DNA of 20,817 bases from positions 1-20,817 of the IMG/VR virus record IMGVR_UViG_3300048999_000102; one strand, 5' to 3'. This DNA comes from a virus. The notes below the pieces were generated by a model. That model was not told where the DNA came from, ran no database searches, and saw nothing but the letters and a program-made list of their open reading frames with translations. Positions 675 through 8,924 of the stretch are shown here, piece by piece. Numbering within the stretch: position 1 is the stretch's first letter; each line of letters starts with the position of its first letter. Both the position numbers and the translations under genes were made by a program.

Positions 675-2237
675 TCACGAGCAGATGGTGTAGATGCGTG
701 CCTCGCCTCGCGCGCCGCTGCCGCCAGCGCCGCCGTTGTTGGCAGTGCCGGCTCCACCGCCTCCACCTCCACCACCGGGCGCGAGACCGTTGCCGCCCGC
801 GCCGCCGTCGATCGAACCCGATCCACCGCCTCCGCCTCCACCACCGGCGACGTTGGCATTGCTGCCCGCGTTGTTCTGCGATCCACCGGTCGCGATGGAC
901 GTTGAGGCGTAGGGCAGGCCGCCTGTTCCACCCGTTCGGGTCGTCGTGTTCGCGGCCGGATTGCCAGCGCCGCCTCCACCTCCACCTCCACCACCGCGAT
1001 AGGCGTTGGCGGCATTCGACGCATTGGCAGACATGGTCGGAGACGTGGCGACGTCGGTGATGTCGCCGATGCCGCCGTCGCATCCCAGGTACATGTCGCC
1101 GTTGGTGAAGGAGGAGTTGGCCGCACCGCGCGAGACAGAGGTCGCAGCGCCGCCCGTTCCCTTGGTCCCACCGGGAGCCTTGATCCAGATGTTCGGCGCG
1201 GTGCCGATGATCGTGTCGTTGCCGTTGGTCCCGTCAGTGCCGCTCACGCCGTTGGACGTTGCGCCCGCGCCTCCCGTGACAGCCGCGCCGACGACCACTG
1301 TCTCGGTCGCGCCGAGCAGGCTCGATGGGAGCCAGCGCTCCTGCATGGATCCGCCGGAACCGCCCGAGCCGCCACCGCGCGCAGCCGACGAGGCGTCGCG
1401 ACGACCGCCACCGCCCGAGGCCCCCGAGCCGATACCGCGCATGAACGAGAACTGCGCGCCGACCGGCTTGGTCCACGTGCCATTGGCCGTGAACGTCTGG
1501 ATGTCCACAGAGACGGCGGCGGTGATGTTCACGTAGTAGATGTCGTCCGCATTGGTGCCGAACGAGATGTTGGCAGCAGCGCAAGTGCCCGTCAGCTCAT
1601 AGTGGTTCGTCTGATTGACGACGCTCGTCACGTTGAAGATATGGAGCGCGGTCTGCGCCGCGTTCTGGATGACAACGCGGGCAACGCCCCTCAGCACGAA
1701 GTCCAGCAGAGTGCCGAGCAGGAGACTGTTCGCATTGGTCTTCGACAGATTCATGCGAACGCACGACGTGGTCGGGGGTGCGATGTCGAACGAGAAGTAG
1801 CCCGACGTCGGGTCGCTGTTCGCGGTGGACCCGTTGTACTTGTACGGATACTGCGCCAGCGACGAGTTGGAGACTTTCATCACCAGATTGCCGTCGGAGT
1901 CGTAGACCTTCCAGCCGTCCTCCTGCATCGTGGCGAAGCCGGCGACTGGTATCGTCATCTGCACCGAGGCCGAGTTGCTGCTCGCGGTGCCGCCGATGTA
2001 GACACGGACGGTGTGCGATGACCCGGTGGTGTTCACCAAGAAGAACGACTTGATGAACGCCTGAGTCGACGATGGCGCGGTGTACACGGTCGTGATCGAG
2101 GTCGCGCACTGCGCCTGAGCGAGCACCTTGTACGACTCGACGCCGCCGTTGAGCTCCATGCCCAAGATCGTCGCCGTGATGGACGAGGCCGAGTCCGCGA
2201 CGCAGCGAATGGTCTCAGTGGGTGATAGCGTCAGCAT
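675..2237 (-). CDS. Tail fibre-like protein with glycine-rich C-terminal domain
   Basis: This 520-residue protein has three parts. Residues 1-115 are a module shared with the next gene upstream. Residues about 125-250 are a Ser/Thr/Asn-rich beta-type segment. From about 250 comes a glycine-rich domain introduced by TWTKP (254-258), the usual entry motif of phage glycine-rich fibre or receptor-binding tips, followed by long Gly runs broken by Asn, Ala and Ser. Glycine-rich tips of this kind form polyglycine-II-like sandwiches in some phage adhesins. The likely role is a fibre or adhesin recognising the host surface. The ATG at 2235-2237 follows the previous stop by 1 base, suggesting translational coupling. 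The whole region shows heavy proline/arginine-rich shadow frames on the opposite strand. Confidence 0.85.
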   Translation of the reverse strand: MLTLSPTETIRCVADSASSITATILGMELNGGVESYKVLAQAQCATSITTVYTAPSSTQAFIKSFFLVNTTGSSHTVRVYIGGTASSNSASVQMTIPVAGFATMQEDGWKVYDSDGNLVMKVSNSSLAQYPYKYNGSTANSDPTSGYFSFDIAPPTTSCVRMNLSKTNANSLLLGTLLDFVLRGVARVVIQNAAQTALHIFNVTSVVNQTNHYELTGTCAAANISFGTNADDIYYVNITAAVSVDIQTFTANGTWTKPVGAQFSFMRGIGSGASGGGGRRDASSAARGGGSGGSGGSMQERWLPSSLLGATETVVVGAAVTGGAGATSNGVSGTDGTNGNDTIIGTAPNIWIKAPGGTKGTGGAATSVSRGAANSSFTNGDMYLGCDGGIGDITDVATSPTMSANASNAANAYRGGGGGGGGGAGNPAANTTTRTGGTGGLPYASTSIATGGSQNNAGSNANVAGGGGGGGGSGSIDGGAGGNGLAPGGGGGGGGAGTANNGGAGGSGARGEARIYTICS

Positions 2238-2238
2238 G

Positions 2239-2619
2239 TCAGTCGTACCCCAACTTCATCTTGCGCGAGCCCTTCGACGAGAAGTACGTCCACCCATCCT
2301 CCTCGAACAGCGCACCGCCGAGAGCGTCGAGAGCCATCGAGCCGGTGATCTGATTCGCGGCCGCCGCACCACCGATGTAGAGGATGATGCCCTCCTTGCG
2401 ACCACCTGCCATGTTCACCAAGTGAATGGACTTGATGAACGCCTGAGTGCTCGAGGGCACGGTGTAGATGGTCGTAACCGTGACAGCCAGCTGACCCTGA
2501 GCGAGGGTCTTGTACGTCTCGACGCCCGCATTCAGCTCCATACCCTCGATGGTGTAGGTGATGAAGTTGGCCTGCGGTGCGACGCCTCGCAGCGTCTGTC
2601 CAGCCTCGAGAACAATCAT
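2239..2619 (-). CDS. Small structural protein, stand-alone copy of the fibre N-terminal module
   Basis: This 126-residue protein aligns along most of its length with residues 1-120 of the glycine-rich fibre downstream. Shared blocks include GMELN-x-GVE-x-YK-x-LAQ, PSSTQAFIKS, LVN, YIGG and EDGW. The module has a beta-rich look typical of fibre attachment or collar pieces. The ATG at 2617-2619 has a GAGG-type ribosome site about 7 bases upstream. The 9-base gap to the 138-aa gene and the 1-base gap to the fibre place all three in one operon. A plausible role is a virion decoration or fibre-anchoring subunit; this is inferred from the shared domain, not from a recognised family. Confidence 0.85.
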   Translation of the reverse strand: MIVLEAGQTLRGVAPQANFITYTIEGMELNAGVETYKTLAQGQLAVTVTTIYTVPSSTQAFIKSIHLVNMAGGRKEGIILYIGGAAAANQITGSMALDALGGALFEEDGWTYFSSKGSRKMKLGYD

Positions 2620-2628
2620 CGGTTATCC

Positions 2629-3045
2629 TCAGTTCTGCAGACGCAGGGTCGAGGCCGACAGGGCGAAGGTGCCAGCGGTCGAGCTGACGTTGCCGCCGAA
2701 GTCGATGTACGCGACGAGTTCGTCGGCCGAGCTCGCGCCCCCGCGATGCTTGTAGTAGACCGCGCCAGCCGCAGTGATGGTCGACGTCGGCCACGAGACA
2801 GCGCCGAGCGAGATGTCGATGCGGTCGTTGGCCGTGTCCTTGGTGACGGTGACGGTTGCCGCCGTGCCGCCCGCCGTGTATCCCGTGCCCGTGACCTCGT
2901 TGGTGACAGCCGAGCGCTTGAGGTCTGCGTCCTTGTCCGGGGTATAGGACGAGGTCACCAGTATCGCGTAGAAGGTGTCGCTGTCAAAGTCGATGTTGCC
3001 CTTGGCAAGATCGTCGAGGCAGGAGTTGTAGATCAGAGAAGCCAT
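2629..3045 (-). CDS. Conserved 138-aa phage structural protein
   Basis: From memory this matches a small protein seen in many Gram-negative phages and prophages beside head-tail and fibre genes. The typical marks are an N-terminal IYNS-x-LDDLAKGNIDF-like stretch, then YAILVTSSYTPDKD, VTNEVTGTGYT, VTVTKDTANDRIDI and RGGASSADELVAY, and it ends in LRLQN. All are visible here and the length fits the family. It has no signal peptide or membrane segment and looks all-beta. The biochemical role is not settled in my knowledge; a virion or tail-tip component is the usual guess. It starts 5 bases after the portal stop, with AAGGA about 10 bases before the ATG. Confidence 0.85.
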   Translation of the reverse strand: MASLIYNSCLDDLAKGNIDFDSDTFYAILVTSSYTPDKDADLKRSAVTNEVTGTGYTAGGTAATVTVTKDTANDRIDISLGAVSWPTSTITAAGAVYYKHRGGASSADELVAYIDFGGNVSSTAGTFALSASTLRLQN

Positions 3046-3050
3046 GATGC

Positions 3051-5372
3051 TTAGTCCTTATCTTCTGTTGAGATCTCTTCCGACTCCATCACCTCGGGCC
3101 TTCCGCGCTCGTCTCGCTTGACGACCTTCGTGCGCTTCTGGACCCGACGAGCTGCACTCGGCGGTTGCTGAACGTGAACGTTGACCTGCGGTGCGGGCAG
3201 GCCCTTGATCGCGTCGAGCAGAAGCTGCTCACGCGAGACGCTGTCGAGTGTCTTCTCCTCGAGACTGTCAGGGTCGAAGCCCTGCACCTTGATCTCCTCG
3301 AAGATCTCCGGTCCCAGCTCGATGGCCCCGGTGTACGGCTGGATGTTCTCGATGTCCAGCGCGCCCGGGTCATACGTGATGGTGACGTGAGGCGTGTAGT
3401 CGTCGTATCCCCACGTCATGCCGTCGTCCTCGCCCCTGCTCATCATCGAGCGGTGACGGTACTGCAGATCGGAGTTGCTGAATGCTAGTACGACTGCACT
3501 ACCAAACCTCTCCATGACCCGGGGTCCACCGGGCTTGACCACGATACCCCCGTTCTCGTCTGATCCCCAGTCGTTGGACCCAATCTTGAGCCAGTCGACG
3601 GGCTGCTTGGAGTAGACGATGGTGACGTGCATGTCGGGCACGACGGACTTGAATCCCTGCTTTCTCGCCCACTTGATGATATCAGCAGTATTCGTAACGT
3701 CCCGTCGAACGTAGAGGCTTCGCGGACGAGTTGCGTCAGCAAGTCGCTGTACAATGCCGTCGACCGCTGCCTTGTTCTTCTGCGAAGTCGTCGCTTTCTG
3801 TTGTGCCTTCGGCGGTGCGAGGAGTTTCGGTTTGGCATTGGGCAGAGCCTTCTGTGCCGGTGGAGCAGGCAGACCCGGAGCCTGCGGTGCAGGTGCAACA
3901 AACTTCGGCGAGTTCGGGTCCTTCGTCTCGTCGTAGTTGGGGTCGTTGGGATCCGTGATCGGGGGAGCGCCGAGGCTGGTCATCGCGGCCTCCTGTGCCT
4001 TCGCTGCCTCGAGATCTGGATCGTCGTCGTACTCCTCGATGATCTGCTCGAGCCCGGGATAGGTGCCGTCCTCGATGAGCTGAGCCTCGCGGGCCTTCTT
4101 GAGCACGACCTCGTTGATCAGACCAGCGCTCACGTCGATCTGGAACGCGGCGGCCTTGTCCTTCACGATGTTGGCCTTGTCCTTGTCGGACATCTGCCAG
4201 AGTGGGTTCCAGCTGTAGTACATCTGTCGATACTCGTCCTCTGGCACCTGCCCCAGGACGTTGCGAATCAGCACCTGATCCAGAACGTCGAGCTGCGGCG
4301 ACACGATCACCTTCTGCTCGGCAGACAGACGGTCGTAGTAGTTGCGCGTGTCGCTGTCCCCCGTTGCCGACAGGCCAGCGGGCGACTGCGCGAGGAAGCG
4401 AGTGGCTGGCACGTCGAACGCGGCCGACGCGATCATGAGGCTCACCTTCTGGACATCGGGCATGCCGGCGAACTGCTGCTCGATGCGCTCCCACTCTTCT
4501 TCCTTGTCGAGCAGGATCATGCCGAATATGGACTTGGCCAGATTGGCGAACGAGAACCGCTTGCTCAGCCGGTCTTCGTACTCTTGATTGATGATGTTCT
4601 CCGAGAGACCCGGGATCTTGATGACGTCGAGCTTGGCCTCGCTGACCAGCTGAGCGATGGACTGGTTCACGGTGCCCGCGCTCGTGATGGCGTCGAGCAG
4701 CGACTGCATCACGCTGTCACCCCAACCGTTTGCAACGTTCAGGTCGGGAATCTCGTTGCCGAGGAAGGTGATAACGCGCGACGGATGCATCTTCACCTGC
4801 TCGACGTCCTGCCCGCTGTTCATGCGAGCCGGCGCGTACCACTGAGGGCGACCGTACCACTCCGAGCTGATGTCCCACTCGATAGGGCCGGTGGTCAGGT
4901 CCCACCGCGACATCGTGTGCAGGAACTTGAGCTGGTCCACGTCCACTGTCTCGGGATCGAGCGGCTTCGACGGGTCGCCGTTGTCTACGCCCATCAGGAT
5001 CGCGCCGCCGCCGTACAGACGGCCGAGCATCATCGCCCGCATGACGCGCAGCTGGACCTTGAACTTCTTCTCGTTCGCCTCGATCTCGGTGACGTCGTCC
5101 TTGTCTGCGTTCCACGTGCGCCACTCGCGGCAGGTGTCGAACGCGGGGATGTCGATGCCCTTCCGCATCATCCAGTCACCGCGATAGGCGATGTCGATCT
5201 GACTGCGGTCCATGTTGATCATGCCGAACATGGTGGCGAGGCTCTTGTCCTTGCTCACCGTGCCCATGCCGCTGAACACGTTGGACAGACCGTCTAGCGT
5301 GGCCTGCCCCTTGCTGCGGCGATTGCTCGTCGCGGTAAAGGCGGCTTTCACCGCCGAGTCCTGGTGTGACAT
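3051..5372 (-). CDS. Portal protein (DUF1073 type) fused to Acb1-like 2H phosphodiesterase
   Basis: The N-terminal ~455 residues are a DUF1073/HI1409-type portal, the dodecameric ring through which DNA enters the head. Marks include IDIPAFDTCREW, RLYGGGAIL, DVPATRFL and GLSATGDSDTRNYYD. A Pro/Ala-rich linker (about 465-530) leads to a C-terminal domain with two HVT motifs, H582-x-T584 and H662-x-T664. These are the catalytic pair of 2H phosphoesterases, and Acb1, which cuts CBASS cyclic-nucleotide signals, belongs to that group. A conserved-looking EIFEEIKV follows. A basic tail of about 60 residues ends the protein. I chose the ATG at 5370-5372 because it forms TGATG with the terminase stop; an ATG 12 bases upstream (5384) is possible and would add four residues. 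Portal identity is firm; the nuclease activity is inferred. Confidence 0.92.
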   Translation of the reverse strand: MSHQDSAVKAAFTATSNRRSKGQATLDGLSNVFSGMGTVSKDKSLATMFGMINMDRSQIDIAYRGDWMMRKGIDIPAFDTCREWRTWNADKDDVTEIEANEKKFKVQLRVMRAMMLGRLYGGGAILMGVDNGDPSKPLDPETVDVDQLKFLHTMSRWDLTTGPIEWDISSEWYGRPQWYAPARMNSGQDVEQVKMHPSRVITFLGNEIPDLNVANGWGDSVMQSLLDAITSAGTVNQSIAQLVSEAKLDVIKIPGLSENIINQEYEDRLSKRFSFANLAKSIFGMILLDKEEEWERIEQQFAGMPDVQKVSLMIASAAFDVPATRFLAQSPAGLSATGDSDTRNYYDRLSAEQKVIVSPQLDVLDQVLIRNVLGQVPEDEYRQMYYSWNPLWQMSDKDKANIVKDKAAAFQIDVSAGLINEVVLKKAREAQLIEDGTYPGLEQIIEEYDDDPDLEAAKAQEAAMTSLGAPPITDPNDPNYDETKDPNSPKFVAPAPQAPGLPAPPAQKALPNAKPKLLAPPKAQQKATTSQKNKAAVDGIVQRLADATRPRSLYVRRDVTNTADIIKWARKQGFKSVVPDMHVTIVYSKQPVDWLKIGSNDWGSDENGGIVVKPGGPRVMERFGSAVVLAFSNSDLQYRHRSMMSRGEDDGMTWGYDDYTPHVTITYDPGALDIENIQPYTGAIELGPEIFEEIKVQGFDPDSLEEKTLDSVSREQLLLDAIKGLPAPQVNVHVQQPPSAARRVQKRTKVVKRDERGRPEVMESEEISTEDKD

Positions 5373-6874
5373 CACTGTGCCCATTTCATGGTCGTGTCAT
5401 AGTTGTACAACTTGCCGAAGCACTTGCCGAACGCGCCAGATGCAGCGTCCACTTGATCCTTGTACTTCGACGATGGAAACGCCTCATGCTCGTCGAGGAA
5501 GTCATCGTTCCAGCGACCACGAAGCAGCGTTATGTTCCCGCCCTGCCACTGAGCAGCATACGGGTCAGCTCGTACCTCTTTCTTGCCTGTCGGCCTGTCG
5601 GCATACGCCTTGTATCCCGCGAGCATGGCGATGGTGCGCTCGGCGCTCTCCTTGCCGCCAGAGCCCGGCTCCTGCTCGCTGTAGATCTCGATCTTCAGCT
5701 TGCCGTAGCGCATCGCGTCGGCCTCTGCCGTGTTCAGGATGATGCGCTCGCGCTCGAACGCCTGCCACTGACCACGAACCACGTTCTCGATGAACCATCC
5801 ACCGCTGTTGAGCGCGTGCATCAGGACACCTGCCGTGAACGCGCCCTCCTCGTGCGAGCCGGCCTTGTCCCAGTATCGCACCGTCTTCTTGATGTCCTTC
5901 TTGTCCGGAAGAGCATCGGTGTACTTCACGCGGTCCAGCGGGAACATGCCTCCCCCGACCACGATCGGGTTCTGCTGGTAGAGCGACTCCCACGACGCAG
6001 TGGTGTTCGCGTCCTTGCGGACCTTGAGAAAGGGCAGCGACTTGAACTGCGGGAACAGCGGGATGCCGGCTCGGCGACGAAGGTCGTACGGACGAGCAGG
6101 GTCGGGGGCCGTCGAGAGCGCGGGAAACTTGAACACCTTCGCGTGCGGAAACTTGGCGAGAAGGCGTCCAGTAGGATCGTCTACGTGCCAGCGCGTCGCG
6201 GTGAGGATCATGCCACCGCTGTCCGTGAAGCGCGTGAAGAAGTCGTCCATCAGCCAGTCCCATATCTTCTTTCGCATGGTGGGACTGGATGCGGCCTCGC
6301 GGCCCTTCAGTGGATCGTCGATGACGCCAACGTCCAGGGTCTTGCCCGTGATCTGCCCGTTCACGGTGGTGTTGCGGAAGTAGCCCTTGCGACCAACGAA
6401 CTCGATGAGCGATGAGTTGCGAAGGGCCTTGCCCGACATCGTCACGACGTTGGAGCTGTTGATCATCGTCTTCGGAAAGGCGATGTGGTACTTGGGATCG
6501 TCGAACATGCGCTGGAGCTGCCGGTTGGCGCTCACGCCCAGATCGGACGAGAATGATGCGTAGATGGTCTTCCAGTCAGGGTTCTTGCCCGCTATCCACG
6601 CGAGTGCGTCCTGAATGTTGCGCGTCTTGCCGTGCTGAGGCGGTGCCTCGATCACGTACATGGGGCGATTGCCCGCGAGCAGCTCCTCGTAGAACTCCTG
6701 CAGAATGATCGAGATGGCGCGCGGGAACCAGCCCTCGACGAGGTCTGGGTCCATGTACTTGCGGAACGACCAGAGGTTCTCTCGCGCCTCTACGGCTGCG
6801 GCCTCTGCAACCAACTCGAGGTCTTCCTCCGAGTAGTGAACCCGGAAGCGAGACTGCGGCTGATGGATGTTCAC
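5372..6874 (-). CDS. terL: Terminase large subunit
   Basis: This is the motor ATPase and nuclease that packages DNA through the portal. The 500-residue length is normal. The ATPase domain has a Walker A EAPPQHGKT (76-84), a Walker B GVIDDP with D186/D187, and a coupling motif TATRWH (225-230). The C-terminal RNase H-like nuclease (Terminase_6C type) shows RYWDKAGS with D336, IYSEQEPGSGGK with E400/E402, and KDQVDAASGAF with D473/D476, so all acidic metal ligands appear present. Translation starts at a GTG (6872-6874) that overlaps the stop of the small membrane protein as GTGA. The gene leads directly into the portal, the usual packaging order. Confidence 0.96.
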   Translation of the reverse strand: MNIHQPQSRFRVHYSEEDLELVAEAAAVEARENLWSFRKYMDPDLVEGWFPRAISIILQEFYEELLAGNRPMYVIEAPPQHGKTRNIQDALAWIAGKNPDWKTIYASFSSDLGVSANRQLQRMFDDPKYHIAFPKTMINSSNVVTMSGKALRNSSLIEFVGRKGYFRNTTVNGQITGKTLDVGVIDDPLKGREAASSPTMRKKIWDWLMDDFFTRFTDSGGMILTATRWHVDDPTGRLLAKFPHAKVFKFPALSTAPDPARPYDLRRRAGIPLFPQFKSLPFLKVRKDANTTASWESLYQQNPIVVGGGMFPLDRVKYTDALPDKKDIKKTVRYWDKAGSHEEGAFTAGVLMHALNSGGWFIENVVRGQWQAFERERIILNTAEADAMRYGKLKIEIYSEQEPGSGGKESAERTIAMLAGYKAYADRPTGKKEVRADPYAAQWQGGNITLLRGRWNDDFLDEHEAFPSSKYKDQVDAASGAFGKCFGKLYNYDTTMKWAQ

Positions 6875-8408: not shown

Positions 8409-8924
8409 CTAGGCCAGCTCTTGCGCCCGATACTCCGTCGTCTTGACCTTGCGGCCAAGCAACGTGAACAGCATCTCTGTCCGCCCATCAACTGCAAGCG
8501 AGGTGAGTTTCCCACCGAGACCGGCGAACCGGCCAGAGCGGGGGAAGCAGATATCACCGACGCGATGCAGACGCTGGACAGGATCGACATAGTATCCGTA
8601 GTCGTCAACAGACACGCTCATGAAGAACTGGAGCTCGTCATCCGCCAGAATGGCAGGCCTCCCCAGATTCATCAGAGTGTGACTGACGCAGCGGATTCCC
8701 TTGGACGGATAGCCGTGCCCGTTGTCACGGACGAAGCAGTATCCCTCGAAGAGTGGAAACACCGGACGGCCGCCGTGGCGGTTGAACGTTGCCGGTCGTA
8801 TCATCGGAAACTCAGCCTCGTATCCAGCCTTGTGCAGCTCGCGCTTTGCCTCGAACTCGCACCCGTCGAAGGTGACTACAACGAGCCAGCCTGCCGGAGC
8901 CTTCGATTTGCGCTTGCGTGCCAT
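8409..8924 (-). CDS. NusG/RfaH-family transcription elongation factor
   Basis: NusG-family proteins bind the RNA polymerase clamp and raise processivity or block termination. This 171-residue protein has both hallmark domains. The NGN domain spans about 12-105, with GWLVVVT at the first strand, a Glu/Lys helix EFEAKRELHKAGYE, and the signature FPLFEGYCFV (56-65), close to the cellular FPGYVFV. The KOW-type domain starts near 121 with VGDICF, GRFAGLGGK and LLGRKV. The length matches host NusG or RfaH. It is the first gene of the leftward structural unit, divergent from the plus-strand operon, so it may keep polymerase moving through the late genes. The ATG at 8922-8924 has only a weak upstream AGGG. 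A solitary phage copy is most likely a specialised paralog. Confidence 0.9.
   Translation of the reverse strand: MARKRKSKAPAGWLVVVTFDGCEFEAKRELHKAGYEAEFPMIRPATFNRHGGRPVFPLFEGYCFVRDNGHGYPSKGIRCVSHTLMNLGRPAILADDELQFFMSVSVDDYGYYVDPVQRLHRVGDICFPRSGRFAGLGGKLTSLAVDGRTEMLFTLLGRKVKTTEYRAQELA

Follow-up and report, generated by a model that had tools for sequence, protein, structure and literature searches.

The virus record analysed here, a stretch of 20.8 kb that we refer to as the window and that is possibly a fragment, encodes a portal protein whose C-terminal part contains a domain of the Acb1 family. The family and fold of this domain, its intact active site, its dispensability and its exchange as a cassette were established computationally. 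The explanation that best accounts for the data overall, to which we give a probability of roughly 0.6, is that the fused domain is a competent Acb1 phosphodiesterase that would hydrolyse CBASS signals late and so blunt CBASS.

The fusion ORF encodes 777 aa on the minus strand (window positions 3051..5384). Its portal core (residues 62-415; 4140..5201, minus strand) matches PF06381 (E 2.8e-96) as well as the portal family PHROG_146. Together with a TIGR01555 score above the cut-off and an adjoining gene for the terminase large subunit, which lies directly upstream (5372..6874, minus strand; PF03237/PF17289, phrog_38), this match places the protein among the DUF1073/HI1409 portals. A Pro/Ala-rich linker, which the initial annotation had already pointed out (residues 456-553; 3726..4019, minus strand), contains 17 prolines and 20 alanines in 98 residues and ranks with the longest linkers in a set of 101 distinct fused proteins, where 14 to 30 residues are typical. 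Beyond it lies the Acb1-family 2H phosphodiesterase domain (residues 556-699; 3288..3719, minus strand), assigned by PF23474, by profile comparison and by predicted fold, and located inside the interval 3285-3767 (residues 540-700) that had been proposed for it. The two HVT motifs that had drawn attention to this region, 80 residues apart and both encoded by CACGTCACC, were found at residues 586-588 (3621..3629, minus strand) and 666-668 (3381..3389, minus strand), with their histidines at window positions 3627-3629 and 3387-3389. The protein does not end in the 2H domain as had been supposed, since a tail of 78 residues, longer than in most relatives, comes after it (residues 700-777; 3054..3287, minus strand).

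We also made some observations on the surroundings of the domain. The tails past the Acb1 domain in the window (3054-3287) and in three relatives (L035, L077 and L082) have a motif in common that follows the pattern PxPxxNVxVxxP...K...(H/R)DxxGR. On the downstream side of the portal (window 675-3045, minus strand) are encoded a member of phrog_644 whose function is unknown, an unnamed ORF and a tail-type protein rich in glycine; no capsid or scaffold gene was recognised after the portal in the window, a gene order that is unusual for such phages. A NusG-like transcription antiterminator is encoded near the terminase genes (window 8409-8924, minus strand), and the phage RHph_N28_2 likewise carries a NusG-like gene near its terminase.

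The Acb1-like 2H identity suggested by the initial annotation was borne out by the family profile, by a sequence match to a solved Acb1, by the predicted fold and by the retention of catalytic and ligand residues. Paired HxT/S motifs 65 to 95 residues apart occurred in 0.7% of domain shuffles, and the spacing of the motif pair, taken alone, is only suggestive. The match of the window protein to PF23474 (Acb1), with 116.4 bits at a cut-off of 27 (E 1.2e-33), is by contrast far beyond what chance would be expected to give. When solved structures were searched with the single sequence, the Pam3 cyanophage portal 8hds came first (E 5e-27), followed by Acb1 7t26 (E 3e-5); with a profile of 71 domains, the corresponding values were 1.5e-52 for 8hds and 3e-18 for FBB1 Acb1. 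Comparing a predicted structure with Acb1, as had been proposed, gave a concordant picture. An AlphaFold2 model of the domain from a 71-sequence alignment reached a pLDDT of 90.2 and a pTM of 0.82, whereas prediction from the single sequence reached a pLDDT of only 34.7. The best Foldseek matches to the model were the apo and product-bound crystal structures of FBB1 Acb1 (7t26/7t27; E 1.4e-7 and 3.1e-7), and VIA-align superposed it on product-bound 7t27 with Z 14.9 and an rmsd of 2.1 A over 130 residues, compared to Z 12.6 for a Burkholderia phage Acb1 and Z 11.1 for E. coli LigT. The LigT/2'-5' RNA ligase profile PF13563 scored 12.6 to 15.4 bits against the window protein, below its cut-off of 27, and membership in that family was dropped for this reason. 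Matches to pentatricopeptide repeats were ignored, as they came from a short stretch at the end of the domain and beyond, and PADLOC gave no relevant match.

In Acb1, catalysis has been assigned to H44, T46, H113 and T115, stacking to Y12, W74, F107 and W147, and an adenine contact to E141 (PMC9117128); numbering from the annotated start of the RefSeq T4 ORF gives values one lower than those of Hobbs et al. The window domain is 25% identical to T4 Acb1, and its H586, T588, H666 and T668 align with the catalytic tetrad. As mapped by alignment, the structure being a prediction, Y558 corresponds to Y12, Y660 to F107 and E696 (3297..3299, minus strand) to the adenine-contacting E141, while F703 lies one residue off W147 and the alignment gave no clear partner for W74.

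These residues were well kept among relatives. H586, T588 and H666 were present in 101 of 101 distinct domains, position 668 was threonine in 90 and serine in 11, and E696 was glutamate in 87 of the 101. The patterns used to search for relatives covered GPEIFEE and the LYxRR region and not the HxT motifs, so that the conservation of these motifs is independent of the search, whereas that of E696 is circular. The median pairwise dN/dS was 0.084 for the Acb1 domain, compared to 0.075 for the portal core. Retention of the HxT motifs together with these low ratios argues that the enzyme site is under constraint in the fused form, and the active site thus appears, from sequence, intact and under purifying selection.

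Comparison of related phages indicated that the domain comes and goes. The portals of L138, which carries the domain, and L144, which lacks it, share 74% identity across 442 residues, with divergence setting in directly behind the core, and the gene downstream, a head-protease-like ORF, is recognisably homologous in both. In the complete phages RHph_N28_2 and CUB19, the portal is present without the domain, and Acb1 was not found elsewhere in the genome. Other pairs differ in which domain is attached to which portal. Two Shinella prophages (L114 and L122) have portals that are 96% identical and domains that are only 66% identical, while L114 and L112 have portals that are 42% identical and domains that are 96% identical; between L068 and L102, the domain is the only nucleotide match within the portal gene. 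In AU tests, the domain data rejected a clade of L114 and L122 (p 7e-5) and the portal data rejected one of L114 and L112 (p 0.003); these p-values are optimistic, as the pairs were picked after the outliers had been seen, and the identity contrasts stand without them. By these comparisons, the domain is accessory, portal function dispensing with it, and it is exchanged as a cassette between portals.

The fusion to this portal family predominates. Portals of the PF06381 family were the fusion partner in 114 of 119 domain-containing ORFs; the remaining five were two free-standing genes of packaging modules, a T4-type reference that had been fetched on purpose, an ORF cut by a contig end and an assembly artefact. 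One free-standing gene, in L012, lies just upstream of the large terminase. The other free-standing Acb1-family gene lies just before the portal of Edwardsiella phage vB_EpM_ZHS (L017:2116-2715, plus strand), and its annotation as a prohead protease is probably wrong. Split portal and Acb1 genes in Synechococcus phage Yong-M3-232 were set aside as a likely assembly artefact, about 128 bases being repeated at the junction, inside the portal gene (L013:1467-1720); in the sister phage Ssp-JY40, portal and Acb1 form one intact ORF. We also examined less selected samples, namely 397, 388 and 378 bacterial genomes from the orders of three carriers. They yielded 15 Acb1 matches over the cut-off: 11 on PF06381 portals (three of them the seed genomes themselves), one on a Mu-type portal, one frame-shifted remainder just after a PF06381 portal and two short separate ORFs. 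Among the 397 genomes, 4 of 13 PF06381 portals carried the domain, with the seed counted. In L155 (1486-3254, minus strand), a PF06381 portal and an Acb1 domain occupy two overlapping frames, through sequencing error, decay or frameshift.

The domain was also found on other partners and in longer chains. In L154 (115-2217, plus strand), a 49% identical Acb1 domain sits in the same place, at the C terminus, on a Mu-type portal (PF06074) whose core gave no BLAST match to the portals described above. In L136 (1345-3003, plus strand), a weaker 2H/Acb1-like relative, with a PF23474 score just under the cut-off, is fused ahead of a DUF2213 head maturation protease, and the fused protease follows a domainless portal. 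The initial annotation had considered a structural protein of fixed copy number an unusual way to dose an enzyme of this kind. That objection loses weight because the domain recurs on proteins of the head, namely on portals of two families and, less clearly, on a head protease; this recurrence suggests that attachment to the head is tolerated or useful. In L091 (1832-5329, plus strand), portal, Acb1 and an ADP-ribosyltransferase (PF03496, E 3.7e-13) form a single ORF of 1166 aa, and in L034 (1342-4059, plus strand), the tail that comes after portal and Acb1 includes a JAB-like HNHPS stretch, for which the RadC match was weak (E 0.09). We tentatively entertain a broader reading, in which the portal C terminus could be a general docking slot for exchangeable, head-borne and possibly protease-released anti-defence payloads matched to host immunity. 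As part of the same tentative reading, the payload might be Acb1, to which an ADP-ribosyltransferase or a JAB-like domain is added in some cases. A Gly/Asn-rich motif (like NPNHxxxGEHGGEF) recurs between the modules of the fusion ORFs in L006, L034, L035 and L091 and could serve as a sorting signal or be cut by a head protease. In L022, L023 and L024, the stretch that immediately follows the portal contains unexpected additional genes (for an esterase, an FAD oxidoreductase and endonuclease II) and is perhaps an insertion hot spot.

We infer the substrate of the domain, its activity while fused, its timing and its effect on CBASS. The flexible linker would tether the domain to the portal on its inner side, at the C terminus. 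Being produced together with the other late proteins, portal chains would cleave cyclic di- and trinucleotides (e.g., 3'3'-cGAMP) 3' of adenosine, before or during their assembly into rings, and would thereby blunt CBASS during the production of head proteins, a stage at which these can trigger it. Activation of CBASS by head proteins, among them the prohead protease, has been reported (cited in PMC12409349), which fits the late timing of a fused Acb1. We found no enrichment of CBASS in carrier bacteria: SMODS/CD-NTases were present in 2 of 16 carrier genomes, compared to 39 of 397 in one order. This neither supports nor excludes an anti-CBASS function; phages infect more hosts than the resident one.

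An enzyme on the portal could also act earlier than we propose. The domain could lie inside the head, be freed by maturation proteolysis and be injected with the DNA, removing alarm or other nucleotides from the first minutes, a course of events that we consider unlikely. Portal rings are not ejected and hold 12 copies, so that release would need a cleavage that is hypothetical so far, and the injected dose would be small. Still, packaging and injection are put forward for 2H-portal and 2H-MuF fusions in the passages that Iyer et al. devote to them (PMC5512222, PMC9503650), and in the P1 portal the C termini form a crown inside the capsid (PMC12810830). Proteolysis would find a candidate in the DUF2213 head maturation protease, which adjoins the portal in many carriers and is itself fused to the weak relative in L136; no head protease, however, was recognised in the part of the genome covered by the window. 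The sequence of the Pam3 portal 8hds holds the domain, yet 8hds was absent among the fold matches, suggesting that the virion structure lacks the domain or contains it in disordered form, but disorder alone explains this absence.

That the domain resembles LigT or Usb1 in acting on 2',3'-cyclic phosphates at RNA ends or on 2'-5' linkages, and not on CBASS signals, is in our estimate improbable. The LigT and Usb1 folds do match the model at Z 10-11, the PHROG_755 match carries the label RNA ligase, and RNA ends or 2'-5' oligoadenylates are among the possible substrates named for 2H enzymes in the relevant passages of PMC5512222. Nevertheless, Acb1 is closest by fold and by profile with a clear margin, and residues specific to its ligand site align, including the adenine-contacting glutamate. 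We regard as highly improbable that the domain is a structural part of the portal that aids assembly or DNA packaging and retains the enzyme site as a relic. Its fusion in frame to a structural protein and the purifying selection on it would be compatible with such a role, but close portals work without it, its catalytic residues are among the best-kept positions, and it has been swapped between distant portals. A competent phosphodiesterase directed at CBASS signals, acting late, is thus the reading that we prefer.

To our knowledge, every anti-CBASS enzyme characterised so far is a free protein. An Acb1 that works as part of an essential head protein, if confirmed, would tie counter-defence to proteins that, in some phages, trigger CBASS when they are synthesised. 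Natural mutants for testing the role of the portal-Acb1 fusion are available through the cassette exchange and in the presence/absence pairs, and annotated phages with isolates (Pam3, phiPSA1 and RHEph04) make it directly testable.

The architecture itself is not new, and the window is a further member of a published one. The initial annotation stated that the fused form was known to databases, and indeed PHROG_146 spans both the portal and the Acb1 part, and 2H-portal fusions are described in passages of PMC5512222 and PMC9503650. In the former, Iyer et al. 2017 note 2H domains fused to MuF or portal proteins as possible RNases or degraders of counter-invader nucleotides; in the latter, Iyer et al. 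2022 repeat the proposal, naming injection and SMODS systems. Neither portal nor fused occurs as a word in the main text of Hobbs et al. 2022 (PMC9117128), and we found no literature on an Acb1-portal fusion under the Acb1 name, the precedent being recorded as 2H phosphoesterase fusions, and no report of an activity assay on any fused form. Relative to the literature found, the structure-level assignment to Acb1, the strict retention of the active site, the cassette exchange, the presence/absence pairs, the second portal family and the repeated recruitment to head proteins are new.

The window domain resembles T4 and FBB1 Acb1 (PF23474; PMC9117128) in family profile, 2H fold, HxT/HxT tetrad and the aligned tyrosine, aromatic residue and glutamate. 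However, the known Acb1 proteins are free-standing and of about 145 to 165 aa, whereas that of the window is the C-terminal part of a portal. The window fusion shares its architecture with the 2H-portal and 2H-MuF fusions that Iyer et al. described in 2017 and 2022 and, as far as the passages on these fusions go, also the general idea of counter-immunity; unlike the present account, those passages make no mention of Acb1, which had yet to be reported in 2017, and do not describe cassette exchange, presence/absence pairs or fusions to a Mu portal and a protease. The Pseudanabaena phage Pam3 portal (8hds) is likewise of the PF06381 type with a C-terminal domain, about 37% identical to that of the window, but its linker is shorter, it lacks the long tail and its second motif is HIS instead of HVT. 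Finally, the fusion recalls the MuF polymorphic toxins of temperate phages (PMC5576092), in which a head protein of the packaging module also bears an exchangeable C-terminal enzyme domain. Here, however, it is the portal that bears the domain, and a signal-degrading enzyme, not a toxin, is the predicted main payload.
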